Below, piece after piece: positions 1 to 56,300 of a DNA stretch of 64,000 nt. This DNA comes from Hyaloperonospora brassicae (lineage: Eukaryota; Oomycota; Peronosporomycetes; Peronosporales; Peronosporaceae), in NCBI GenBank assembly GCA_947650285.1, contig CANTFL010000714.1, positions 1 through 64,000 on the forward strand, in the 5' to 3' direction. Position 1 is the stretch's first letter. Each line of letters begins with the position of its first letter. The position numbers and the translations under genes were made by a program. Under the pieces are notes generated by a model. It made no database searches. It had not been told where the DNA came from and was given only the letters and a program-made list of their open reading frames with translations.

Positions 1-2253
1 CGCCGCGATCGATTCTCTTTACCTTCCCCCTGGACCTTTAACAGGCTGTCGTGGATCGATATTAGAGTATGGAGGCTGCTTTTGGAACAGCTGATGATCC
101 GGAATCGTCAGTTGAGCGAGGATCTTCAGGAGCTCCGCACCTCCGCGCCCCTTTTCGTCCAGTTCGCACAACCGAAGTACGACTGCTTGCGTGAGCGTTA
201 TGAAGACGAGGTTAAGCAGAGTGAAGCTTTTCGGGAGGCGTTGGCCGACCGGGTCGACCAGACCGCTTTGATCGAGCATCTCAAGTCTCAAATACTCCGG
301 ACCGTGCGAGCACGTCATGCCGCTCAGGAGAAAGCCGATCGTGAAGTCGCCGGGGTACGCAAGCAGATGGACGACGCTACCGAGCGGTGGGGGGCTGAAT
401 TCGACGAGTTGTCCAACAGCTTGAACAAGGCGAAGCGCAAGAAGTCGAAGTACAAAAAGACTGGCCTTCAACTCCGCGAGAAACTGTGTCGTGCACTGAA
501 GCAAGTCTCGAGGCTACAGGCCGAACTTGGCGAGGCGCAGGATTCCCTATCCGCCCGATCTGCCAAGTGCGAAAAATTGCGTCGCATCGTGTCGGATTGC
601 GACGTCACTTTGGGCCAGGTGCGGGTTCAGCTCGCGGACATGGCTTCCGAAGGCGATCACGCGATAGGAGATCACGCAACACTTCGGGAGCGCATGGCGT
701 CACTGGTGTCTGAGGATGCGTCAACCGCACCTACAACGGTGGGATCGTCTGCCCCCGCACCGGCTCTCACGATTCCTTCGCCAACGACGAACATTCCAAG
801 ATCAGATCGTAAGCGATCTAGCGATCCCTTATCATCGTCCGCCCTGCCACCTCCCAAGAAAATGACTCGATCTGCGGCTTCCACAGCTAAGTCGTCCCTA
901 GTTTGCAGTCCCAAGGTGGCACGATCCGTTTCTGCAAAACACAAGCCACCCACAGTTCCTGATCCCAAGCCTTCGATCGCTTCCCGAGACACCCGCGATC
1001 CTAAGGGTCGTCGCGGTCCCAAGACTTCGTCCGTTCCCCAAGACACCCGCGATCATAAGGGTCGCCGCGATCCCAAGAATCACCATGATCCGGCGAAGCC
1101 TGCAGCTTCCCTGAAACTGGGCAAGCAGAGGCGTCGCGATCCCAGCTTAATTTCGTCTGAGGAGGAGGATACATCTGCCGGTGAAGACGAGACTTTAGCG
1201 GCTTTATCCAGTTCGCGATCTACTAGTCGTCGTCGAGCGACCAATTCGGTGGCAAAACCTTCGGCTGGGCCTTCTCCAGATCCGATCGTCATAGATTCGC
1301 TGAGCCCTCCGCGCGATCTTCCACCTCCGGTTGATCCTGTCCCGCCTGCCAAGACCAAGAACTCTCGTGTGGACCTTTTCGGAGAGGCTTCCAGCGATTC
1401 GGAGGGTGCTATCAGCCTTTCTGACTCGCCTCGTGCTCCCGTCAACTCGATGTTGTCTCTGGCGGATTATGACAGCTTGCCTCCCACCAAGATTTCTCGC
1501 GACCAGTGGATCCCCGGATATCGCGATCGTGTACCGCGATCGTCCGTTCAGGTTACTCCCTGGTCGGCACGCAGGGTCAGCTGGACGAGCGTCGCGGAAA
1601 TGGATATTGACTTCCTGTACCACCATTTATCTCGCACCAGAGGCTATATTTTCCCGACGGTAACGGTGTCCAAGCGTCCTCCTCCAACATGTGAGTGGAC
1701 ACCCCGGCTGGTATGTTCGGCCCAGATCGCGGCCTTATACGCCCAAGCGCCTTGGGAGATGGCTACACGTCGGATTGCGCCGATCTCCTTCCCTCGTACC
1801 GGCTGGTACGACCGACTCGCCTCACTATACTTGGAGTTCGAGGATCGAAACCGGCAGGCTTTGTGGGAGTCGACGCACGCAATCTTCCTGTCCAGCGAAC
1901 AGCGAGTCAGCGATCCTGAGTTGGACCAGTTTTGGAAATAACGGAAGCAGCGTCGATCGCGAGCTGGACCTCGGTGGAAGGCGATCCTTCGATTCATCCT
2001 ACAAGGCATAATCGCAGATCATTGTGATCTGGACATCCTGTTGGATCCCTTCTTTCTGCACTTCCCGTCGTTCGAGGAGGTTTCTCCCTGGTATCCTGGC
2101 TTAGGATGTGACTCCAAGGGCATCCCCAATTTGATCTCCGCTCTCTCGTTGTTAGATGCCGCTGAACTTTGGCGTTCACAGTATCGTTCTTCTATTGCCG
2201 CCCATTCCGGATCGTCGATTGGACGATTGCCAGGTAAGTTCTTTCCTGCCTGA
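1..2253 (+). pseudogene. Antisense accessory ORF (aORF) of family 1, 5' end outside window, one in-frame stop
   Basis: The frame is open from base 1, so the start lies left of the window; the internal TTG at 82 need not be the start. It runs to a TAA at 1,939-1,941 and then stays open in the same frame to 2,253, so the original product was about 750 residues or more. The first ~200 residues are charged and heptad-like (coiled coil). The middle is disordered, rich in Ser, Pro, Lys and Arg, with imperfect repeats around RDTRDPKGRR and KGRRDPK. The last ~250 residues are folded-looking, rich in Trp, Tyr, Phe and Leu (for example near FLYHHL and PWEMATRR). A consensus splice donor CAG|GTAAGT sits at 2,231-2,239 just before the final stop, so a 3' intron is possible. 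I recognise no known domain. The coding sense is opposite to gag-pol and convergent with pol, 220 bp away. Confidence 0.6.
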
Positions 2254-2472
2254 TTGCTCGGATTTGATTCATATAATTCCATATTTCAATATAATCTCTG
2301 TTGATCCTTCATCTTGTTCTTCATCTTGAGATCAACTTCTTTTCTTTGCTTTCCAACCGCGACCGGATCCTTTCGATCCGCTATCACCACTCAAATTACA
2401 TATAACCCCAATCCATCATCTCACACCACCTCCCTTTAGCATACGCTAACCGCTCATCGCTTCGATCACCCG
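2254..2472. other. Spacer between antisense ORF and pol
   Basis: This short convergent gap holds no ORF. It contains pyrimidine-rich tracts and AG dinucleotides (for example around 2,300-2,330) that could serve as a branch/acceptor region if the GTAAGT donor at 2,234 is used on the plus strand. It could equally hold the 3' ends of both transcripts. I see no clear LTR end or polypurine tract in it. Confidence 0.4.
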
Positions 2473-5205
2473 TTAATTTTCGGTTTCCTCCTCATGTGAC
2501 TGCATAACTTCAAACCGGGTTTGACTCACACGATTGCGCTCGAAATCTTGCAACAACGCGCCACAGTTCAGGTCCCCTTCGTCTATCCAGGTCGGATCGT
2601 CGTGTTTCTGCCATTGAACCAGAAACTGTCGATGCACTCGGCCATAACGAGTTTTACGTCCTGATCGTACATCCAAGATTTTCTCCACTTCGTATCCGTC
2701 GGCAGCCAACTCGCCTTCCCAACTATCTTCCGGCAACAACGACTCGTCGAAATCCACACGATCTCCACAGTCAGTAACCAGCACACTGCTTGGGCGATCC
2801 GGGAACTGTAACACTGGCTTTAACTTGGAGACGTGCACTATCAGGAACAATCGGTATGGAGTTCCTGAGATCTCCACTCGATCCGCATGTTCTCCACATA
2901 ACTCCGCCACTCGAAATGGCCCATGCCACATATGTGCTAACTTTCGGGCATAGCCGTCTTTTACTCGATCCAAGTAGAGCCAAACTTGCGATCCGCACTT
3001 AATATCACACACTTCATCATTACCATTGTGTCGATCCGCTCGATCTTGGATCGCGATCCTGAGACGTTCGTTCACCACTTCTCTTGCCTTCTGATATTGA
3101 CGCTGGGTGTTATATCGCCACCTTGTAGGATCAGCATCGCGTGTTTTAGTGCTCCCCAACGGTAATGTTGCTTCCAGTGTCGATCTTGGATCCCAACCAT
3201 GGATCAAATAGAACGGAGAATCTCCGCGGATCCGATCGTGTGCCGTATTCATGGCTAATGTCAATTTTTCTGCGTATTCATCCCAGTCTTTCTGCTCTAC
3301 GTCCGTGACGTACATCTTAATCGACCGAGTCAACGTCTGCATCATACGCTCCGCCGTTCCGTTCGCTTGCGGTCGGGACGCCATGGTCGCACGTTGCTTC
3401 TGCCCTGCGATCCGATTAAATGCCCTAAAAAAGTCGGACATAAATCCAGGCTCCCTGTCGTGACGTATAGCTTCACTGGCTCCAAATCTTCGAAACACAC
3501 ATTTTTCGTATCCTTCATCGATCGCTTGCGCAGTCCTCGACGAACTTGATCTCGCGATCACATACCCTGAGAATAGATCTACCCACAGCAGCAATTCTGT
3601 GTTTCCTTTAAATGACCGCGGCAATGATGGGATATGATCCATCGCGATCACTTAAAATAGGTACGCAGCTTGTATGTTTCCCGGAGATCTGCCGCGGATC
3701 GCGGGTAGACCCTTCTCGGTTGTACAGTCCACGCACTTGCCAACATAACGTTGCACGCTCCGATACAATCCTCTCCAGAGAGAGATGGATCTGACCCGCT
3801 GATAAGTCCTCCCGATATCTTGGTGACCACCCTCTAAGCTCGTGTGGTAAAGGTGCATAAAGTTTTCCTGCAACAATTCCGGTACAACCAGACGGACCAT
3901 CTCCATACGATCGTCCGATTCTTTAGCGGATCGGGGGCTGAAGAAAAGCAATCCGTTTTCGTCCACTTCGTAGTCTGGAGCGATCCTAGCGCATAATTTT
4001 GCATCCTCTGCGTTTATATGTGTCAGATCGCCCACAATATATTCATTCAGGTTGGCGATCCAGCTTTCTTCTTCTTGCGCTTGTTTTATCCGCTCGATCC
4101 GCATCCGCTGTACTATTTCTTCTTGTAAAACTTCGGGTTGTTGACGTCTTCGCCGCGCGGATCGTGTAATCGCCATCATTTTCACCACGCAATCCGTCCT
4201 TTCTGGCAGAAGCAACTCGTGCAACCGGTTGAGTGCTATCAGCTCTTGCAATTCTTGATCCAAGTTCACAATGACATCTTTCTCTTGCTGCAAAGCTGCA
4301 CTAGCTAGTCGATCCGCGCTTTGGTTCCACTCCCTCTTCATATGTAGGAACTCGTGTTTTGGCCAAGATCGAAGTTTCTGCATTGCTTTATGACGCAGTA
4401 ACTGTAGTCCGGGCGCTTTGCAATCCATCTCTCCCCGCATTTGCCTGATCACTAGGTTCGAGTCACCACATATAATGACTCGTCCCCTAGTTTGGTTGTC
4501 CAGCAGATCGAGACCCAACAACAGGCCACGATTTTCTGCTGCATTCACTATCAGATCTGCCGCGTATTCCGCAGCGGCTAAGATGATGGTCCAATCGGGT
4601 AGCTTCCACACGATCGCACTATATGCCCCACTCTTACGTTTAGTCCGTGCCGATCCGTCGAAACTGACCACCAACAGGCATTCATCCGTACCTAACGTGG
4701 GAGGTAGCATAGTTACCAATTGTTTGGGTTTCTTCTGTGGAGCGATCGCAATCAACACATCATCGACCTCATCCCGCGGAGTTATGCTAGTTGCGAGAGC
4801 GCCTAGTATTTCATCTTCTCCTTTAGTACATCTCTTGACATCCAGTGTCCAGTTCGATAGCAACGCAGCCCATCTTCCCAGTCTCCCATTGAGGCCAGAC
4901 GATTGGACTAGCCAAGCTAATGTCGAATATCGAGTGAGTAATCTGATCTCTCGGGATACTAGCATGGTGTAGCATACTTCCAAGATTCGAAGTAGAGCCA
5001 AAATTTCTTTCTCCACCATACCATAGTTAACTTCGTTAGGTTTCAGTGTGCGACTCATGAATATCACTGGCCAGTATACGCCGTCATATTCTTGTAACAG
5101 AGATGCCGATACCTCCCACTTACTAGCATACACCACGATCACTGGCAGTCGATCTGAATCGAAATGTTTGAGGATCGGGGTTGTAGCGATCTTGGCCTTC
5201 AGCAA
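2473..5205 (-). pseudogene. Pol C-terminal part: tether/RNase H, second RNase H, integrase, chromodomain-like tail (family 1)
   Basis: Two open stretches (3,652-5,205 and 2,473-3,651) lie in one frame, split by a single TAA at 3,652-3,654. In order: a degenerate first RNase H/tether (VIVVYASKWEVSASLL, then EVNYGMVEKEILALL); a second complete-looking RNase H (SFDGSARTKRKSGAY, NAAENRGLLLGL, ICGDSNLVIRQ, NQSADRLASAAL); the integrase zinc region (H-x3-H...C-x2-C near HLYHTSLEGGHQ and GKCVDC); the integrase core with Asp in MDHIPSL, Asp in HDREPGF and Glu in GTAERMMQ; a GPY/F-like stretch (WHGPFRVAELC); and a chromodomain-like tail (YEVEKILDVRSG ... FLVQWQKHDDPTWI). Two RNase H domains in one pol are known from plant Tat elements and from some oomycete Ty3/gypsy elements. 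The nonsense codon would remove the integrase core. Confidence 0.85.
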
Positions 5206-5296
5206 AGCGAATGAAATGGCGGCCCTTTCCCACCGAGATCGCTCATTTTTATCATGCTCATCCCTTTGTAATGCGTTATCGCAACTTCCCGACGTC

Positions 5297-6439
5297 TCAC
5301 CACGATCTCCCCATACGGCTCATCTCGGAAAAATCCGCCTCTCGTAACTCGTACAACACCGATGCATATACTGCAAAACCTTCTATAAAGCGACTGTAAT
5401 AGTTCAAGCTAGCCAGGAACGATTGCATGGATCGCAAAGTTGTGGAAAAAGGAATATTCACCAGCGATCCTAGGTCTTTAGGATTGGCTTCCAGCCCAGC
5501 CAAAGATACCTGATGGCCTAAGTAATCCATCTTACGCCGTCCCCAAAAACTCTTGGTCAGACTGATCGACAAATTCCATCGATCGCATGCTGTCAATAAT
5601 CTTTCGACCTTGTCGTACAGAGATGTCCATGACGTAGCCGGGATCAATATATCGTCAATGTAATACCGTCTGCCCAGCACTGACGGCGCTTGATCCGTTT
5701 CCGACTCTCCTTCAGTAAACACATCCGTTAACTTAGGCTGATCTGTTACATTCACATCCTTATCCGCGCCGATCTTGAGATACCCATATAGAGCATTATC
5801 AATCAAACGCTGATAAATCTGTGGTGCGTTCTTCAGTCCAAAAGGCATCCCCAACCATTCAAACAGGCCCGACGGCGTGATGAAGGCAGAGATCGATCTT
5901 GCTCGTTCGGTCATCTCTACCACCCAAAATTCACTAGCCATGTCCAGCGAACAGTACCACATCGCTTTGTCCATATCTTGCAACAATTCACTGATAAGTG
6001 GCATAGGGTACACCATCAGCTGTGTTAGCTGATTAACTCGTCGATAATCGATACACAGTCGGATATCTTCTCCATTTTTCTTGATTATCACAACTATTGG
6101 CGATGCCCATGGCGATGTCGAAGGTCGGATAATCTTGGCTGACAACAAACCTTTTATCAGATCGGCCAACTTCTCACGAAAATTTGGCGCGACAGGTCGC
6201 ACACGCTGAGCGATCGGCTTCGCTTCTCCCACATCAATGTCACACACGGCGCCTCGTGCTGCAGGGGGTAATGCGTTTCCTTTTCCGATTAACAGGTGAC
6301 GACTCTTCCATATCAGTTGTCGCAAATACTCTTGATCTTCAGTCAAGGGCATTCCAGGATCGCCAACTTGGACATCGTCTATTGTTATCTCGGTTGTAGA
6401 TACGGTTATCTCCGGCATCACGGCCATGTGTTGTTCCAC
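5297..6439 (-). pseudogene. Reverse transcriptase of family 1, frameshifted at both ends
   Basis: This is the RT palm and fingers of a Ty3/gypsy pol, which copies element RNA into DNA. Visible landmarks: the N-terminal PVAPNFREKLADLIKGLL, the fingers KKNGEDIRLCIDYRRVNQ, motif A around WYCSLDMASEFW, the conserved LGMPFGLKNAPQIYQRL, the catalytic YYIDDIL, and LSLTKSFWG-like and YLGHQVS motifs. About 40 acidic, poorly conserved residues are inserted between the NAPQIYQRL helix and YIDD, longer than in most Ty3/gypsy RTs. The start is a non-ATG codon and the frame differs by one from the protease upstream; the junction with RNase H at about 5,206-5,297 also needs a frame change. The Asp pair of YIDD is intact, so the enzyme core is not visibly broken. 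Confidence 0.85.
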
Positions 6440-7935
6440 ATCTTCCGCGAACAGTTACCTCCCTCGTGATAGTATGTCGATTCATCTGGTACATCCCTCT
6501 CCATTACTTCGTCTCCGATCGTAACAACTTCCACGTCGTCGTCCAGTCGTGTAGCCTGGTTATGCACCTCCCGATCTTCTGCCTCGATCCCGTCTGGGTG
6601 ACAGTTGGACTGTCCGTGTAACGGATCAGTTGTATCCTGGTGGTCTTTCGCTATCATAGTCTCCTTTGCGACCATGTCCTCTTCACCCGACGGTTCTGGC
6701 GTCTTCCGCAATACGTTGGCTGCACATGATCTTATCATCGATCCATCATCCTTGTCTTCATCATTCCTTCCACTCGTATATTCGTCATGCAACTCCTCAT
6801 TAGAGTCACCATTAGCGTCAGATGGTGAGGTGATCTCTACCGAATCCTTGATGTCGTCTGATCTCCATTTTGAGCGCGACAAAATTCGGGTAGGTTTCTC
6901 ATACGTAGGATGATCCACTAACGGGCCCGTGTAAGCTTCGGCTTCTTCTTCTTCTCGATCTGTAGTGGCCTCAAAAGCCAATGTCTGCCATTCCATGTAT
7001 CGCCGCGATCCTACAGATACATATCCTTTAGATCGCGGGATCATGCCTTCTGTCATCCACAGCGCCAAAGGGGCTCCGCTGTTTAAGATCGGGTCGCGAT
7101 CGCTTACATTTGTAAGCTGCAGGAACTTAATCCTTCCGGGACCATTCGTCACGGTAGGAATCCACGCTACATCTCGTCGCACCCAAAGCTTCGATTTAGG
7201 AGGGTTGACACCGATCCTTACTTCCGCTGATCTGCCGGCCGCAATGGCTACATGTTGATCGTTAAGGTTGACCGCCGATATATTCGATCGGTACGGTGGT
7301 CTTCGTCCAGCCAGACAGATTTGGACTTCATCGGGCAGGCAAAGGGTCCCGTCGGTCAAATCCAAACGAAAACCTGCAGGAACCATGAAGTCCATGCCTA
7401 GTATAGCTTCTTGACCGACTTGATCCCCAACCCAGACATCAAAATTATACACTAGTGATCCGTTCAGTGTGATCTTGATCTTGGTCCGTCCTACCGTCAT
7501 GTAGGTACTCTCTCCGATCCCAATACATTCTTGTGTTTGGTTCTCGTCTATCACACACCCTACCTTACGAGCAAAGGTAGTGTCGATGATCGAGACTTCT
7601 GCACCAGAGTCAAACAGAAAAGTGGCCTTCTCATTGTTGATCTTGCCCACTACTTTCGCCTGTTTAAACCATTTTCCCGGAGTATGATACTTCCAGTATC
7701 CCCTCGACTCACCAGGGGTAAGATCGAGCTCCATCTCCACCGGGGATCGGGCATAATTGTCCACTCGCTTCACACTTGATATCGAAGAGGTTCGTTCTGA
7801 ACAATTACGTGTATTAAAGATCGGATCGCGCCGATCCTTAACTCCTTGGTCATCCGACTTCTTTTCAACAAATGCGTATATGCATAGCCCAGAACGCTCG
7901 GCTCGTGCCAGATTCCAACCTGGCGAGCGTCCTAG
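6418..7935 (-). pseudogene. Aspartic protease (retropepsin) and acidic linker of family 1
   Basis: The frame is open upstream of the GTG at 7,773 right back to 7,935, where it joins the gag frame by a -1 shift. The protease core has the active-site triplet as DSG in FLFDSGAEVSIIDTTF, the flap region ECIGIGESTY, and the second hallmark AILGMDFMVPAGF, all in the usual order and spacing for a Ty3/gypsy protease that matures Gag-Pol. After it comes about 200 residues of low-conservation linker, strongly acidic near the end (EEEEAEAY, NDEDKDDGS). The frame ends at 6,418 while the RT frame is already open (overlap 6,418-6,439), so a one-base shift near 6,440 separates protease from RT; I read this as mutation because the acidic linker and RT join smoothly across it. 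Confidence 0.8.
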
Positions 7936-8171
7936 TTTAACATTTTTTCGACCTTCGGAGGAAACATCCCCGCATGCTTAGTAGGCACATTCCACTGGCG
8001 GATCAAGTTAAAGAACTCTTCCATGGGGCATTTTCCATTCTCATGTACCTCTCCGCAGTCTGCACACACGTAGAAGCACTTGTCCGATGGATGTCCTTTG
8101 CGACCGCACTTCTGACACGTTAGTCTCTGCCAGCATCCACGATCATCATGTCGCGTCGATCCGCAGTGGGT
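7932..8171 (-). pseudogene. Gag nucleocapsid zinc-knuckle segment of family 1
   Basis: This 79-codon open segment is bounded upstream by a TGA at 8,172-8,174 and ends with TAG at 7,932. It contains a perfect retroviral-type CCHC knuckle, CQKCGRKGHPSDKC (C-x2-C-x4-H-x4-C), followed by a second Cys-rich stretch CADCGEVHENGKC. This is the RNA-binding end of Gag. It lies between the gag segment ending at 8,313 and the protease, and is out of frame with the former, so at least one indel has broken gag between 8,174 and 8,313. The last codons form the candidate frameshift site. Confidence 0.8.
7935..7941 (-). promoter_or_regulatory. Candidate -1 ribosomal frameshift heptamer G_TTA_AAC at the gag/pro junction
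   Basis: On the minus strand the gag zinc-knuckle frame reads ATG TTA AAC TAG, so the heptamer GTTAAAC (pattern G UUA AAC in the zero frame) sits directly before the gag stop at 7,932-7,934. A one-base backward slip there continues in the frame that is open for 54 codons and leads straight into the protease. GUUAAAC is an established -1 slippery heptamer in nidoviruses. I did not work out a downstream stem or pseudoknot. Confidence 0.6.
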
Positions 8172-8312
8172 TCATGCCTTCGTTTTTCCACCTCGATCAC
8201 GTCCATCTTCTTCACCAGCATTCTTCTGCCAGGTACGCCGATCTTGATCCAATCTCTCTTGACCAGATGTAGTGGTCACACAAACTCGGCGGTGATCCTT
8301 GTCTTCATCTGA

Positions 8313-8855
8313 TCAACTCAAAATTGATTCCGATCCGCTACTTTCGATCCGCTCACGGATCGTCCTCACCGCCCGAGCAGTCTTGGATGACGTAGGATTT
8401 GGATAGGCATTACCTCGCTGGTGGAACTTATTCGATCCTGTCGGCGTCTTCAACTGACGACTCTCCATCCTTTGGCATGCACGCAACGTCTCATCCAACT
8501 CGTTGACATCGGTCAATCGTAGTAGGGTCAGCTGCTTGGCCAGATCGCGATCGTCCAACGTGGCAATGAAATGTTCCACATGTTCACGACGAGTGTCCGC
8601 CGTGGCCATCCTCTCGTCTCGGATCGCGATCTTGGCATGCTTAGCCGCGACATTTAGGCGGTGTAGAAACTCCTGTGGATTTTCATCCGATCGTTTCCGT
8701 GCGAGATAGTATTGTCTGGCCAGAGACACCCCTTGTCCTCCATACTGTACCATAAACTCATCCAGCAGTCTCTTCCACTTCTTCCGAGTAGATCGACTCA
8801 GTTGGTTGTACCAGTTTCGAGCGGGTCCTGTAAGCAGATCTCCAAAACCAAACAC
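8313..8855 (-). pseudogene. Gag, C-terminal half of capsid-like domain (family 1)
   Basis: This continues the Gag domain begun in the next segment. It shows the usual retrotransposon gag core, with [48 protein letters not shown] and DVNELDETLRACQRME, the helices that build the capsid of Ty3/gypsy particles. It overlaps the N-terminal segment by 58 bases in another frame; the two join through a one-base shift near 8,850, in the middle of the domain, so I read this as an inactivating mutation and not as programmed frameshifting. The start is non-ATG. Confidence 0.8.
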
Positions 8856-10522
8856 TTCTCCTCATCTGGTGCTTGATCGCGCAAGAAGGCTGATTTAACC
8901 TTGCTGATCCAGCTTCTGGCCCGATCTTCATCTCGATCCTTGCCACTGAATTCTTTTAGCTCCGTCATCGCCGACACTCTGATACGTTGGGGTATGCTAT
9001 CACCATCTTGCAACGTCTCGGTTGTAGATACCATAGCGTGTCTACGATCTTCTTGTCCCGAATCATCGGGATCGATGTCATCAGGATCAGAAACCTCCGG
9101 ATGACGGGTGTACGACTGCACCGATTCCATATCCACGTCGGGTTTGTATCTTTCGAGAGATCTAGCAGGCTTGATCCTTTGGCTAGGGTAGATCGCTTGA
9201 TACGCCCGTTTCTGTTGATCTTGGCGAAAGCGTTCCATGGCCTCGTCGAGGTACGTCTGCAGGAGCCCTTGCGTAGTAATCGGCTTCTGCTCTTTAGCGC
9301 CTGTGGCCTTCGATCGCGAGTTCATCTTCACCGACTCGACTCGATCGCATAGCAGTGCTGCACCACTTGGGCCTAGAGACATTCGTTGGATGCCGACCGA
9401 ATCGTCCGACTCCATTTCTGACTCCGCCGAGGCATATTGAGACGATCCGGTATGATAACCTCTCGGGGCCTCGGCGATCGTCGCAACTGCTTGATCCGCG
9501 GATTCGCGCTTCCCCGTCAGAGGAATTGACGATCCGGTATAATGGCCTTTCGGGACATCGGCGATCGTCCCCACTGCTTGATCTGCGGATTCGCGCTTTC
9601 CCGTCAGGGGAATAAGCTTGTCATACAGCGATCGACACGCATGGATCACCTGATCCTGATCGCATTCCAGTAACTGGTTCGCATCGAATGCTCCAGCGAT
9701 GTACCTCGCATCTTGCAACAGTTGGATGATCGCGCTGATCCCTTCTACTGCGTTAGTCGCCACCTTCGCACAGGATATCGGGCCTTGTAACTCTCCGAGT
9801 AGCTTAGAATTCAGTATCCGTAGCACGGGATCATTCGATAGCAGATCCTCAAGCGCTTTCCAATGGAATCCCTGCTCCAGAGGATCCAACTGCCATCCTT
9901 CCGGCTTCATATCCAGATTTTCGTCTACGAACTTGATCGGTTTTATGATCGCTTTCACGACGCGATCGCGTCGATCCGATCTGGGATCTTCTTTCTTCAC
10001 TCGATCCGTCTTCGAAGTCGTCTTCTTTGACATTGCTTGAGTGGTCTTGTGTAGTTTTTGTTCAGTTTTCGCTGAAGGGTTTTCACCCAGCGGATCGTGT
10101 TTTGCAGCACGATCCGCGGTGGTCCCCAAAGGGACCATAGGAGGGGGTCGAGGATTATCTTCCAGATCGATTGATCGATCTTCCTCTTTAATTTTCTTGT
10201 CATCAGAGCCCCTCTCAAAACTCTGATAATCCGGGGATCCTTTAACATCACGCGTCGCAGGCGATCCCTTCTCCTCAAACGCTTCCATCCCAGGTTCAAT
10301 CTTAATTTTCACTTCTTGACTTGGGGACTCACGGTGAAATCCCGAGTCACCAGAATATCCGGGCACGCGCACCATTGTGGTGGAGTGGCGATCGCTCAAA
10401 TTATGAGTCGATCCCAACTCTTCACTGGCGCCCGGACGACCGACTAACGGAGGGGTTACTCCGATCCCGTGTTCTTTATAGCTTTCCTCACCTTGTGTAC
10501 CCGTCGGTAGGGCGAGTTGCAC
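8798..10522 (-). pseudogene. Gag, long N-terminal region (family 1)
   Basis: About 530 residues of mostly charged, disordered sequence precede the start of the gag core ([19 protein letters not shown]). The region has acidic/basic runs ([33 protein letters not shown]), a predicted helical patch around residues 210-290, and a two-copy internal repeat near residues 305-360. The length is unusual, since many Ty3/gypsy Gags start close to the core. The assigned start is not certain: ATG codons further in (for example MVRVPGYSG) are conserved in the inverted fragment at 19,770-19,780, where the sequence around ATGGTGCGCGTGCCCG is retained, so that ATG is a good candidate for the true start. GATC occurs at high density throughout. 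Confidence 0.7.
9444..9617 (-). repeat. 87-bp tandem duplication inside gag
   Basis: Two adjacent 87-bp copies (starts 9,444 and 9,531) keep the frame and encode two 29-residue copies that begin with [14 protein letters not shown] and end with TGSS. Copies differ by several bases, so the duplication is not recent. Each copy carries the GATC motif several times. Confidence 0.85.
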
Positions 10523-11082
10523 TCTTCCAGGTGGACTCGTCTCAAAAGAAAACTTGACCGTGTTGGGGATGGGGGTGTGATCGTGCGGAAATCTTCACGC
10601 GATCACGGGGTACTTGTGGGTACTGACTTGAGTAACCCTGATCTCAACGAAATCGCCTTGTCCACTGTATGGTTGCTTGATCCGCGAGCCTTCTGACCAC
10701 TTGATCCGTCTCGCGATCTTGCGCCTTGCCTTTACTTGTCTTGCTGCGTCCGATCGCAGTTGATGTTACTTGAGGGTTCTTGAACACACCTGGCCAAAAC
10801 AATCCAGATGTGACACTTGCGTAGACGTGTACCGTTACTCTTTGTTCAACGGGGGGCCAAAAAATCCAACCCGGAAGAGATAACGTGTGCCTTGTGAATT
10901 AATTTGAACTCTGTTTAATGTTATCCAATCAATCCTGAAACCCTACCCCTATGCCTATCCGTATGTCCTAACCAGATGCCACGCGTCGCCTTTCCAGGAA
11001 GATCGCCCCCTCACATTTGTGTGGTCCACACCCAGTATATCAACCGTTGTGTCTTTCTTGTGGCCCACCCAAGATGTCCCCA

Positions 11083-11240
11083 CGATCCTACGAGCGGATC
11101 GCGATCCTACTAGCGGATCGCGATCTTACTGGCGGTTCGCGATCCTAGCCGTGGATCGTGATCCCACTAACGGTTCGCGATCCTACTAGCGGATCGTAGC
11201 CGGAGATCAGATTTGCGATCCTAGGTTAGGATCGCGATCT
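11083..11240 (-). repeat. 19-bp tandem array, unit TCGCGATCCGCTAGTAGGA
   Basis: On the minus strand about eight diverged units of 19 bp are visible, most with a TCGCGATCC or TCGCGAACC head and a CTAGTAGGA-like tail. One unit is degenerate. The related fragment on the plus strand shows a comparable stretch (about 18,945-19,105) rich in GGATCCGATCC at the matching place, so an array of GATC-bearing units is a fixed trait of this leader or LTR although the exact unit changes. Confidence 0.8.
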
Positions 11241-11848
11241 TCCAGTGAAATCGAGAGTCTTGTCTTGCCCTGTCTCACGACGGATTGCGTAATCAAAACG
11301 GGTCTGACCACCCCATAACCTCGTCCCAGATTGGACGATCCTATCCAATTGGGTTTGGGGTACGTTATCGTCAGCCACCCGTCCCAGCTTGTATCATCCA
11401 ATCACAGTGATCTTGGTTCAACCGAAACGTGGGACCCGTGCGATCGCCCATCCTCGATCGCCACTCCACGTCCCAAAGAGATTTCTTTGAGACAGCTTTA
11501 CCACAATACTTACTGTACTAAACAGCCGTTTTAAGAACGATAGACTAGCTCGAGCATCAAGAAGGCGATCCGCAGCCACAAACATAGGTGAGTCCGGGAG
11601 TAAACTAATATCTGGAAAGGGTGGGACGGATCAAACACGTATATCATCGCTGGAAGAGCAGCCATCGAGATGAGAGTAGCCGCGAGACAAGGTCTAACTT
11701 GGAGATTCATCATGCGGAGAAGCGACCGAGCGGTTGTAATTTGAGCCCAACATCGGGCCTAATCTGGGGACTAAACCGTGATGTCCACACTCTGCTCTAT
11801 CACTGGCGTATGACGGGAATCACGTTCCACTGCCGGTGCTGGGGGGGG

Positions 11849-14899: not shown

Positions 14900-15850
14900 A
14901 ACGAGGAGCTGGCGCAAGTAGGACGAATTGTGGAGAGACAAAAAAAATACTGGTCGAGACAATTGCTCTCTAGGCTCGTATCGCGCACCGGATTGTAGGG
15001 GTATAGCGAATTTTCGAACGTGGTATACCGTACTTTCGAGTTGACAATAGGAGCGGTGAACCCGACGAGAGAAGCCGGAGCACAGCGAAGTAGGCGAGTC
15101 AAGACTCGACAAGACAAGACAGGACAAGACTCGACAGACAAGTATTGACGAGACAAGAATTGACGAGACAAGACTCGACGAGCTAAGGATCGACGAGAGC
15201 AAGATCATGACTAGACCACCCCACTAGGTATCAGTATAGGGCGACAAAGAGGGATGAAAGAGAACCACTCAAGGTACCTTTGCAATTTGGAAGAGAATGG
15301 AAGATATTAAATACAGAGCAGGATTTTTCAAGTCCAAGACACATGTACACTTGTGAGGTAAGTCGCTACGTTGTCTGGATTATGTCTGCTGTCGATCCTC
15401 GAGGAGCATAGCTTGTAGAGGCCTCGATTGGAAGCGCCCTGAGTTAAGTCGGCTCGGGGTGGGCATTGCCCGCTTCCTGATATAGATCAGTTTCTTCGCA
15501 CGGCGAGCCGGTGACCCAATCGATGGCACTGTCCGAAGGCTCGTCGGGCGACGAGGCGGTGGGTCTATAACTAAGGCCACTGTAAGTCTTCTAGTCGGCC
15601 GTATACTGCGTCCGGTGACCTGCAAAAGCGTGTAAACGCCGACGGCTACCCATTGGCACGAGTTCACAATATTATATAAACGGAAACTGCTGATCTCAGG
15701 CAGTCTTCTGGAAAGGTGTGTAAGTGGTTGGAGGTACTCAGCTAGTCGAGATCCACGACTGATCCCGAAGGGGCGAACTGAGAAGGGGATCGACCCGTCG
15801 TATAATCCTAACTGCGCGGACTATCTCGGCGTTGGTTGTGTTGTTATGTT
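14900..15850 (+). repeat. Relic LTR copy A (LTR family X)
   Basis: This block is recognisably the same as 42,260-43,160 (copy B) and 48,900-49,800 (copy C), in the same orientation. Shared landmarks include GAGGCATAGCTTGTAGAGG-like, GCCGGTGACCCAATAGATGG-like, CTTCTAGTCGGGCGTACTGCG-like and CTCAGGCAGACTCCTGGA-like strings, in the same order. A 15-bp array precedes these landmarks in all three copies. Ends are not visible, so the limits are approximate. Divergence is high, which marks an old family. Confidence 0.6.
15092..15205 (+). repeat. 15-bp array in LTR copy A, unit about GACTCGACGAGACAA
   Basis: About seven units of 14-16 bp follow each other, most with a TCGACGAGACAA core. The same period and a TCGrCGA core recur in copies B and C. 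Simple composition here also creates a spurious Ser/Leu/Val-rich minus-strand ORF. Confidence 0.65.
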
Positions 15851-18935: not shown

Positions 18936-19830
18936 ATCGGAATTGATCCTCGTGGGTGTCCGATCCGGGAAGGAGTTCCGACATGAAAGTAAAATCTGAC
19001 CAGATAGTGGATCCGATCCAAGTGGGGACTGGATCCAAGAGGGATCCGAATAAAGAAGAGGTCCGGTCTGAGAGGAGATCCTATCCAAGAGGATCCGATC
19101 CGGTCCAGGGGTAGGGGATAGTTTAACGGGCCTATGTTGTACCAGAGACAGGATGATATATTGAACGATACGTGGCGAGTGTCGTTTGGCACATAGGCTA
19201 GGTCGTAGGTTTTGTGAGTTGGTTGGATAGCATTAAATGGAGCTCAATTTACTTCAAAAGACACGCGTCATCTTTTCCAGGGTGGATCTTTGGCTTTCCG
19301 ACGAAACAAAAGGATTCTTCGTTCGTCTATACAAGTGTCGAATCTGGATTGTCTGGCCATGTGCGTTCAGAATTCTCACAAACATCGAGACAACTACGAT
19401 AGGGCGCAGCAAGAAAGCAAGGTTGATCAAGATTGCGGAACGGCTCAAGTGGTCAGAAGGTCAAGCCGATGAAGATCTACGTATTCGACAAGGCAATATC
19501 GTTGATATCCTGGAATCTCATGTCGAGTACCCACAAATAGCCTGTGATCGCGTGAAGATTTCCACGCGATGACCCCCACCCCAAACACGATCGAGTTCAG
19601 CATCGACAAGAGTCCACCAAGAAATGTGCAGCCCTCCCTACTGACGGGTACACGAGGTGAAGAAAGAAGCGAAACAAACGAAAACGGAGCACCCCCCCTC
19701 CGATAGTCGGTCGTCTAGGCGCCAGTGATAGGCGGGATCACATCAGCAATTTTGTAAACTCCGGTTCACCACAATGGTGCGCGTGCCCGAATTTGAGGAG
19801 ATTCGGAGTTTATCCGTAAGTCCCTGAGTG
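18936..19830 (+). mobile_element. Detached inverted fragment of family 1 (leader array, leader and gag start)
   Basis: Plus-strand 19,100-19,830 is colinear with the minus strand from about 10,980 back to 10,330. Shared strings include GTGATCGCGTGAAGATTTCC, AAGTGGTCAGAAGG, CTACTGACGGGTACAC-like, TAGTCGGTCGT and CACCACAATGGTGCGCGTG. Upstream, 18,945-19,105 is rich in GGATCC/GATCCAAG units, matching the array position. The similarity stops near 19,830. The ORF at 19,237-19,572 falls inside the leader and is not a gene. No LTR or target duplication was found, so this is a truncated remnant. Confidence 0.85.
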
Positions 19831-20439
19831 AAGATGTGAATAGAAAGTAGTATTTCAGCGTCTTTATAGTTGGATTAAATTTGTTTGGAAATCTACGCAA
19901 CGTAATGTGTTTTACCTGACTACGAAATTCTGATTTAGCAGGTGTCTTAAAAATGATTCTTCGAGCATCCGGCTAGTTCAATATATTCACTAGTTACAAC
20001 ATTGGATATTAAAATACCCTGTCGTTTTTATGTAACAAGTTCATATTTGTTGAGTTTGTCGATCGCGGCATGTTGCTATAATCCTTTTTATGAATACTAA
20101 TACGTGGTCGCAAGTCCGCCGATGGTATAACTACATATGTTTGTCTTCGTTGCATTATAATCGATTGTATGTACAAAAGATGAAGGTATTATGTGTATGC
20201 TATCCTATCCATTATCTGCCATGAAGACATTGGACGAAAATTTTGTTGTCCTAGACGGACACCTAACTAGGACAATGTATAGCGGCCACCAAATACAGTT
20301 ACCGATACAGTACAGGATGGTCGTTCAGACCCCAAATAAATATTGGGTCCCTTTTAACCCCGACATGAACCCTACGTGCTGATAAAGAAAACAGATTAGC
20401 CAAGGTGTTTGGTACACATAAATGAACCCACAAAATGAA

Positions 20440-54695: not shown

Positions 54696-55209
54696 TTGAG
54701 GTCAGTAGGGGCGGATCACCCTACTGATCCAGCAACATCTAGAGAATTTGCTAATTTCTTGAATAAGATTGCTCCCTACACACAATCTCTACATGTCTCT
54801 ACAACTGTTAGTGAGGTGTATATCATCACCTTGATATTGAAAGCGACAAAAGGCTTGTCACTTCGCGCCCTAGTTGACTGCGGGGCTTCGAAAATTTTTG
54901 TTCGTCGCCAGTCACTAGAGGCTAGAAGAATCAACTTCGTGGAACGGCAGATCCGTCCAACGTGTATGACATTGCTTCTAGCGACAGGCGCATAGATCTT
55001 TGTGAAAAACGTGTGTAGTCGGAATGCACTTTATATTAGAATACGAACAGAATGATGACGATTTCATCGTACTGGATCTGGATGAAAATTTTGATTTCTA
55101 CCTAGGACTATCGTGGCTCAGGGGATACAAGCCAAGGGTGAGCTGGCAACATCGCTCAGTAACGATGCCTGCCACTTGTTCTTTATATGGCCTACTAAGA
55201 ATGTATTAA
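54696..55209 (+). pseudogene. Protease remnant of the truncated element
   Basis: The active-site region reads LRALVDCGASKIFVRRQSL, so the central residue of the D-x-G triplet is Cys instead of Thr or Ser. A TAG interrupts it. The second hallmark follows in another frame as FDFYLGLSWLRGYKPRVSW. The acidic and Ser-rich stretch at 55,317-55,568 behind it is the linker to RT. Confidence 0.7.
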
Positions 55210-55574
55210 AACGCTTACATTCACGAGGGTGTACTGCAAGTGAGTGCGATGGTCTCATTTGAGGTACGGTCGTTAGCTCGAATGTACAAGAACACAGTGT
55301 AGATGATCATTAGATTGTGGGAAAAGCTCACCCAGATCCTGTGGAAGCGATTTCCCAGGAAGTAATCGAGACACTGAATGTCTTGGTCAATGACGGATCG
55401 AGCGTAGGCGCTTACACGGTTGATCTGGTTGTGCCTCCGAAAATCAATTCGGAAATAACTCAATTGCCGAAACTAGAACATAAACGGTTCTTGCGTGATC
55501 TGCGTAGTGGCAAGGTCAAGCAGATCTGTGTACTCGTCGCGGAGTACGAGTACGTTACCGATATTTGATCGTCA

Positions 55575-56300
55575 ATGGTTGTTACTGAGACCGAACGGAT
55601 TCTCAGCAGTTCATCAATGAACGAAAGTGTCATCGATGAGAATAAAATGATTGAAAGATACACGCCTCAATCCTATGAGTCACTTCAGGAAAATCCTTCG
55701 TATATGAATTTGATCAAATTCAGGGATATATCTCCTGATTCCATGCCTTGCGAGTTGCTTAAAGACAAAGGCACTCAAGACAAGGTCGAGCTCAAACTGG
55801 GCTCGAAGCAGTGGATACTGCCTCGTGATCAAGTAATATCGATCGTCAAGATATTAATCGATCACTTAGCGGCAGGCCATGTGAGGTAATCGACATCCCC
55901 TCACAGCTCTCCGACCTTCTGTGTGCGAAAGGCCACAGGAGGATGGCGGATAGTGCACCCATTTAACAAGTTGAATGCTGCAACGGTACCGGCTTAGACG
56001 CCGATACCGAGGAAGGACGTCATCATAGATGGTATGTCTAAGAGTACCATCTTTTCGTCCATGGATCTGATAAATGGATTCTATAAGATCCTCATCTGTG
56101 AACGGGACGTTCCGTACACAGCAGTAGGCACCCCAACGGTACGCTGTGGGAGTCGCTAGTGATGCCACAGGGACTGAGTAATGCCCCTGCAACATTCAAC
56201 AGATGTGTAACAGATCTGATGAGACAGGTGCGGGATTTTGCACCAAGTTATTTCGACGATATGTTCGTTCATAGCTGGGTACGAATAAAATGACGGAGGA
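55575..56300 (+). pseudogene. Partial reverse transcriptase of the truncated element
   Basis: Readable pieces in order: SPDSMPCELLKDKGTQDKVE and GSKQWILPRDQVISIVKILI, a TAA at 55,887, SPTFCVRKATGGWRIVHPFN, a TAG, SMDLINGFYKILICERDVP (motif A), QGLSNAPATFNR-like remains, and the catalytic SYFDDMFVHSW near 56,250-56,280. The gene then ends. Nonsense codons and frame changes make it inactive. Confidence 0.75.

Follow-up and report, generated by a model that had tools for sequence, protein, structure and literature searches.

Selection on the replicating element as the best reading of a GATC excess in a Chronos-like retrotransposon of Hyaloperonospora brassicae

Why should one retrotransposon be filled, in coding and noncoding DNA alike, with a single palindromic tetranucleotide? 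The question is raised by a 64,000-nucleotide stretch of the oomycete Hyaloperonospora brassicae (contig CANTFL010000714.1, here C439; C439:1-64000, termed the window), which opens on its minus strand with a long terminal repeat (LTR) retrotransposon packed with the word GATC. By its predicted domains the element is placed in Ty3/Gypsy with the domain set of the Chronos group. Its 3' side is cut by the start of the contig, from which the other LTR is absent, and it carries a predicted antisense accessory open reading frame (aORF) in addition to gag and pol (Table 1).

Across positions 1-11460 of the window 233 GATC were counted, against about 43 predicted by base composition alone (observed/expected 5.36) and 90.3 ± 8.3 in dinucleotide-preserving shuffles (maximum 115, n=200), which confirms the excess reported by eye in an earlier, sequence-only reading of the locus; its estimate of about 40 GATC in the first 2 kb comes close to the 37 counted. 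The remaining 52,540 bases are ordinary, with 252 GATC against 236.8 ± 14.8 in shuffles. Counted in 500-bp steps, GATC ranges from 4 to 19 over 1 to 11,500 and from 0 to 6 in the following 15 steps, bearing out the claim of a high density to about 11,460 and an abrupt fall thereafter, and the drop coincides with the end of the LTR at 11505. That the density reappears in a detached copy at 18945-19830 also holds (15 GATC against 7.1 ± 2.2, maximum 14 of 200 shuffles), but its supposed confinement to the family and this copy is contradicted by window 55001-56000 and by a second GATC-rich repeat in the genome. The former, which lies outside the element, contains 12 GATC in 1 kb, 3.2 times composition.

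Statistically the finding is solid, and it is the exact word that is in excess. Once GATC is removed, the constituent dinucleotides are near normal (rho(AT) 0.96, rho(TC) 0.98, rho(GA) 1.13), and the 12 one-mismatch words occur at 0.57-1.55 of composition. The sites are spaced almost at random (squared coefficient of variation 0.89), and a search for periodic placement gave a strongest periodogram power of 7.5 at 57.5 bp, which is not convincing. The word had been described as usually CGATC or GGATC; CGATC is indeed common and GGATC is not, the preceding plus-strand base being C in 109 cases, T in 52, G in 42 and A in 30.

A mutational or compositional process, be it host mutation bias, codon usage or tandem duplication, might make GATC without selection, and protein sequence together with codon usage does alone yield 99 of the 182 GATC found in the listed frames. 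This value derives from 500 shuffles of synonymous codons within each frame, which keep both protein and codon usage (99.1 ± 6.1, maximum 119); GATC is favoured beyond the codon-usage expectation, and all three reading phases lie above it (78, 45 and 59 observed, 51.9, 16.3 and 31.0 expected), in line with the earlier view that no codon effect of one protein is involved. The 182 of 233 sites inside listed frames include small frame overlaps counted twice, and the complement, termed noncoding here, includes 7774-8315 with its zinc knuckles, probably old gag. Densities of 22.3 per kb between aORF and pol (1939-2475) and 27.7 per kb in the LTR (10523-11460) were observed. Tandem arrays were rejected as the whole cause, since the element has three of them and the signal would need more. 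Twelve 3-kb pieces of other Gypsy or Copia elements from the same genome gave observed/expected ratios of 0.95-2.23 against 5.36 in the element, so GATC richness is not general to the retroelements of this genome; two of these pieces, at 2.06 and 2.23, are mildly rich.

Copies of the family were compared within the 100.6-Mb assembly (898 contigs), which is the scope of all genome-wide results given here. A conserved 28-mer of the element occurs at 70 genomic places with up to 3 mismatches, 43 of them with up to 2. LTRs of the family are about 1.1 kb long with TG...CA ends, and within five copies the two LTRs differ at 0/1187, 2/1129, 8/1090, 19/1147 and 31/1263 sites; the low counts indicate recent insertion for at least some copies. 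Six pieces of window 1017-8990 were aligned in 13 to 16 rows each, with a minimum coverage of 97% of a piece for every BLAST piece admitted; C350 was left out throughout, and C1, C95, C764a, C332, C191, C320 and two B copies are absent from some pieces. Every aligned row is GATC-rich (11.6-23.0 per kb across the six pieces). The copies split into subfamily A (mean pairwise identity 0.977) and a more diverged subfamily B (0.906), in which most pieces have in-frame stops, some of them due to frame shifts. Comparison of A with B leaves aside window 1-1016, 2434-2472 and 8991-11505.

Changes private to one copy were then separated from changes shared by at least two, dropping gapped columns and sites with less than 75% agreement in the other subfamily, with base and CpG classes for the expectations drawn from the same change set. 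Private A changes (n=580) comprised 45 GATC losses against 44.7 expected and 7 gains against 7.8. Changes in a single A copy mostly postdate insertion, so GATC decays after insertion at the neutral rate, and the roughly six-fold ratio of words lost to words made, as expected without bias, speaks against a mutational source. In private B changes (n=1405) losses were likewise near expectation (99 against 101.7), while the gains, 32 against 20.7, are above it as a mutational source would predict; these gains may include changes from the time when the lineage was still active. An earlier count with somewhat altered rules gave similar private-change figures. The exact-word signature opposes such a source as well, and an origin of GATC without selection is largely refuted and, in our judgement, highly improbable. 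Host mutation bias, codon usage and tandem arrays were each rejected as sole cause on the exact-word signature, the codon shuffles and the private-change rates.

Shared changes behave differently. GATC losses numbered 3 against 10.2 expected in A (n=131) and 10 against 20.7 in B (n=282), together 13 against 30.9 (p 2.4e-4); since changes common to two or more copies mostly predate some of the transpositions, this deficit reflects the replicating lineage. Among 240 fixed differences between A and B in 5598 columns, one falls in GATC fixed in A (331 columns) and four in GATC fixed in B, and at third codon positions the counts are 0/94 for A-fixed (7.4 expected) and 1/76 for B-fixed words (6.0 expected), the two sets overlapping. 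The single fixed difference in A-fixed GATC (1/240) departs from the 46/697 private A changes that fall in GATC (p 1.9e-5), and so do the 5/240 obtained when B-fixed GATC is counted too (p 0.0075). Of 136 strand-merged tetramers GATC ranks first in conservation in either direction of the A/B comparison (0.796 and 0.852, mean 0.626, row pairs not being independent). Codon tests on GAT, xGA and xxG found GATC kept in both directions, and the ATC third-base test agreed from A to B (0.964 in GATC, 0.723 elsewhere), so that seven of eight comparisons support selection. Subfamily-invariant GATC was also lost less than other words (3/100, p 3.9e-4; 3/68, p 0.020). The exact-word excess, its maintenance in the transposing lineage and its neutral decay after insertion are thus computed observations, and the reading that suits them best is selection acting on the element as it replicates; this reading is well supported, some tests being weaker.

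It may be proposed that GATC serves as a short palindromic cis-acting word kept dense along the whole Chronos-like element, whereby the copies that continue to transpose would be those dense in GATC, and fewer GATC would mean fewer descendants. Its reader would be a factor specific for GATC in double-stranded DNA. The host machinery for N6-adenine methylation is the most likely candidate, in which case the density of the word would set the level of N6-methyladenine (6mA) and through it the chromatin state of the element or its expression; a protein that binds GATC is a close alternative. The palindrome favours a reader of double-stranded DNA, as do its presence in coding and antisense-coding DNA and the finding that GATC is not concentrated in RNA loops. 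The link to adenine methylation, to a binding protein or to packaging, each already raised as conceivable, is one that we infer, and the favoured reading taken whole, with selection, a DNA word and the 6mA machinery as leading reader, is in our estimation an even call.

Candidate methyltransferases in the host are two neighbouring PF10237 (DAMT-type) stretches at C867:82359-83869 and one MT-A70 frame with DPPW at C150:281603-282121; Dam-type PF02086 had no match in the genome. At 49 GATC sites outside the main frames the flanks are approximately reverse-complement symmetric (C before 1.35, G after 1.56, A before 0.57, T after 0.48), which hints at a double-stranded DNA reader. In Phytophthora, DNA becomes a substrate for DpnI, an enzyme that requires methylated GATC, through the action of DAMT1 and DAMT3, and 6mA peaks within LTR elements amount to 37% in P. 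infestans and 15% in P. sojae, as described in the accessible text of PMC6211444. That system resembles the present case in the word on which its DAMT proteins act, in the LTR elements concerned and in PF10237, which this genome has too; no enrichment of a GATC word in an element appears in that text, the word "Gypsy" occurring 0 times in its main text.

Several results weigh against this combined reading of selection and a methylation reader. From B to A the ATC third-base test is reversed (0.954 in GATC, 0.979 elsewhere), and among subfamily-invariant words GATC ranks only 5 of 136 and 11 of 124. Shared gains are not clearly favoured (1 against 1.8 in A, 5 against 4.2 in B); some other palindromes, such as GCGC, are also under-lost in shared changes, in small numbers, and where copies are related by segmental duplication, part of the changes later than insertion could be counted as shared. 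When all 233 sites are taken together the flanks are asymmetric (on the sense strand T before 0.49, A after 0.82), to which the role of TGA as a stop may contribute. Proteins with PF10237 or MT-A70 may act on other substrates. Moreover, 6mA in Phytophthora accompanies low expression, the opposite of an obvious benefit (PMC6211444, accessible text).

The flank asymmetry just described would suit a word acting in RNA, as GAUC, for instance through many weak packaging or dimerisation contacts for Gag. Enrichment over internal region and LTR is as for a whole transcript, zinc-knuckle-like motifs lie in the gag region, and competition between copies for packaging could give strong selection. However, GATC of the sense strand was unpaired at 0.282 against 0.291 ± 0.009 when the sequence between GATC words was shuffled, and of the antisense strand at 0.269 against 0.300 ± 0.011 (12 shuffles each), the latter being more paired if anything; nor does an RNA motif need to be palindromic. 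A role in RNA is accordingly rated as unlikely.

An element-encoded protein, for example the product of the aORF, might instead bind GATC clusters and shield the element from silencing in the manner of VANC, which we treat as a tentative alternative of minor though appreciable probability. The aORF runs antisense between pol and the 3' LTR, has 14 database matches, the named ones in Peronospora matthiolae and Phytophthora fragariaefolia and thus in other Peronosporaceae, and its A/B mismatch rates by codon position (0.12, 0.17 and 0.26 in the aligned part, 1017-1938) place most changes at the third, as in a coding frame. According to the available text of PMC5735166, the motif bound by VANC21 is 9 bases long and its density in the transposon that encodes VANC21 matters, and the effect of VANC6 extends to an unrelated element bearing the VANC6 motif. 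The VANDAL/VANC system of Arabidopsis resembles the present case in a short motif that is dense in one transposon family and effective in many copies. VANDAL is a DNA transposon with its motif mainly in noncoding tandem repeats (PMC5735166), whereas the present word is a 4-base palindrome running through coding and noncoding retrotransposon DNA, with 182 of 233 sites in listed frames and with candidate readers only. A Pfam search of the aORF and its 14 homologs, in which the VANC family itself was not compared, returned weak coiled-coil-type matches and no DNA-binding domain, and the model of homolog P0001 is poor (mean predicted local distance difference test score 48.4), suggesting a long coiled coil at the N-terminus, disorder in the middle and some helices towards the C-terminus. 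Plant Retand elements have, like this one, a long region from pol to the 3' LTR with an antisense frame, and Retand antisense frames encode a predicted DNA-binding domain (PMC11963269, available text). Retand elements are non-chromoviruses, whereas the element here has a chromodomain, and TRP28 (PF04195) found no match in the aORF or its homologs.

Beside one family copy, that on contig C95, lies a second GATC-packed repeat with 10 GATC in 172 bp (C95:126500-126671), occurring also at C2:3874-4291. This adjacency would agree with GATC density marking the element itself as an integration target, new copies nesting in old ones. Target duplications, 4 bp long, are readable in four of five copies and none of the four is GATC (CTAT, CATC, GTTC and CTAC, by eye), and in each of six further flanks, of 171-741 bp, the GATC count is 0-2; self-targeting is a most improbable account.

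The 172-bp flank had no blastn similarity to the window or to the other loci compared. At least 56 matches to the second repeat were obtained (best 40 of 225 candidates), and its core has 1,810 genomic matches at up to 2 mismatches. The 61 exact matches listed include eight same-strand pairs with a distance of 9.9-13.1 kb (22 of the matches were paired by computation, the others by eye), as expected for LTR pairs of a 10-13 kb element, which suggests that the repeat is the LTR of another retrotransposon family. Triplets of GATC with gaps of up to 10 bases number 37,200 genome-wide, against 155 for CTAG in the same pattern, whereas about 1,500 and 140 are expected by chance from background densities of 5.00 and 2.26 per kb. 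The window copy holds 21 such triplets, so that about 70 pol-bearing places would yield about 1,500, a share that excludes solo LTRs; an LTR-bearing query gave 2,136 first-look candidates, of which the best 40 were scored. A second GATC-packed repeat suggests a host-wide reader rather than a private quirk of one family. That at least two retrotransposon families of this oomycete have arrived convergently at a dense GATC code, preserved by selection at the level of single bases and serving as an address for the host's adenine-methylation system or for an anti-silencing protein, is possible, although we lean against it; mobile DNA would then carry a eukaryotic word for epigenetic recognition.

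In a literature search of titles and abstract openings, with subscription works mostly outside its reach, no GATC-enriched retrotransposon was found described. A natural, apparently selected cluster of the tetramer of DpnI, DpnII and Dam would allow a direct test of what 6mA does in the control of eukaryotic transposons, which is disputed. It would further add to VANDAL another case of a transposon amassing a short address word, here through the coding DNA of a retrotransposon, and would offer a sequence-only way to spot such systems.

As to the element itself, Chronos, a Ty3/Gypsy group of Peronosporales and Pythiales, likewise has two RNase H domains, a degenerate Gypsy one and an additional one of archaeal type that keeps its catalytic residues, and a chromodomain after the integrase (PMC5348765, accessible text); neither GATC enrichment nor an antisense aORF is described for it there, "GATC" occurring 0 times in the main text. 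Here the chromodomain PF00385 is predicted at residues 320-372 of the integrase frame, after the integrase at the end of pol (27.5 bits, cut-off 25.1). One frame holds both RNases H, PF17917 at 22-118 and PF13456 at 182-304, and its residues 178-306 match solved RNases H of bacterial and archaeal origin. Opposite TDAS and TDHIS of the aligned Ty3 chain the first shows VYAS and TRYS, and the second carries SFDGSA, AAENRG, CGDSN and SADRLA (both by eye); judged on the residues which we take to be catalytic, the first appears to lack them and the second to retain them. Named reverse transcriptase matches lie in Phytophthora, Peronospora and Pythium (best 120 of 1263). Together with the aORF matches, these point to a host that is probably a member of the Peronosporaceae. 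Pattern searches for relatives gave 12 and 73 stretches in viral contigs and 14 in prokaryote contigs, none of them confirmed.

Table 1. Predicted features of the element and its detached fragment, in window coordinates
Feature	Position	Strand	Basis or remark
GATC-rich Ty3/Gypsy (Chronos-like) retrotransposon	1..11505	-	Pfam domains, LTR end, 233 GATC
aORF, antisense accessory frame, 619 aa	82..1941	+	between pol and 3' LTR
Integrase core, SH3-like stretch, chromodomain	2473..3651	-	PF00665 and PF24626 (both under curated cut-offs), PF00385 (above)
Degenerate Gypsy RNase H, second RNase H (RVT_3), integrase zinc-binding domain	3652..5205	-	PF17917, PF13456, PF17921
Reverse transcriptase	5297..6439	-	PF00078, E 2.1e-22
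Aspartyl protease	6418..7773	-	PF13650, PF13975
Two zinc-knuckle-like motifs	8028..8117	-	motif scan, coordinates by hand; in the frame of 8313-8855, past its stop
gag, two overlapping frames	8313..10522	-	8313-8855 with Retrotrans_gag; 8798-10522 without Pfam match
87-bp tandem pair containing GATC	9441..9613	.	tandem array scan
Primer-binding-site-like 17-mer TGGTGCGCGTGCCCGGA (minus strand)	10358..10374	-	just inside LTR; position by hand
5' LTR, TG...CA, 1130 bp	10376..11505	-	aligned to the LTR pairs of five other copies
Array of about six 19-bp units CGATCCTACTAGCGGATCG, inside LTR	11083..11196	.	tandem array scan
Inverted diverged LTR/leader fragment (detached copy)	19193..19840	+	72.7% identical to 10308-10958

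Outside the element, a 15-bp tandem array of 7.7 copies was also observed at window 15095-15204.

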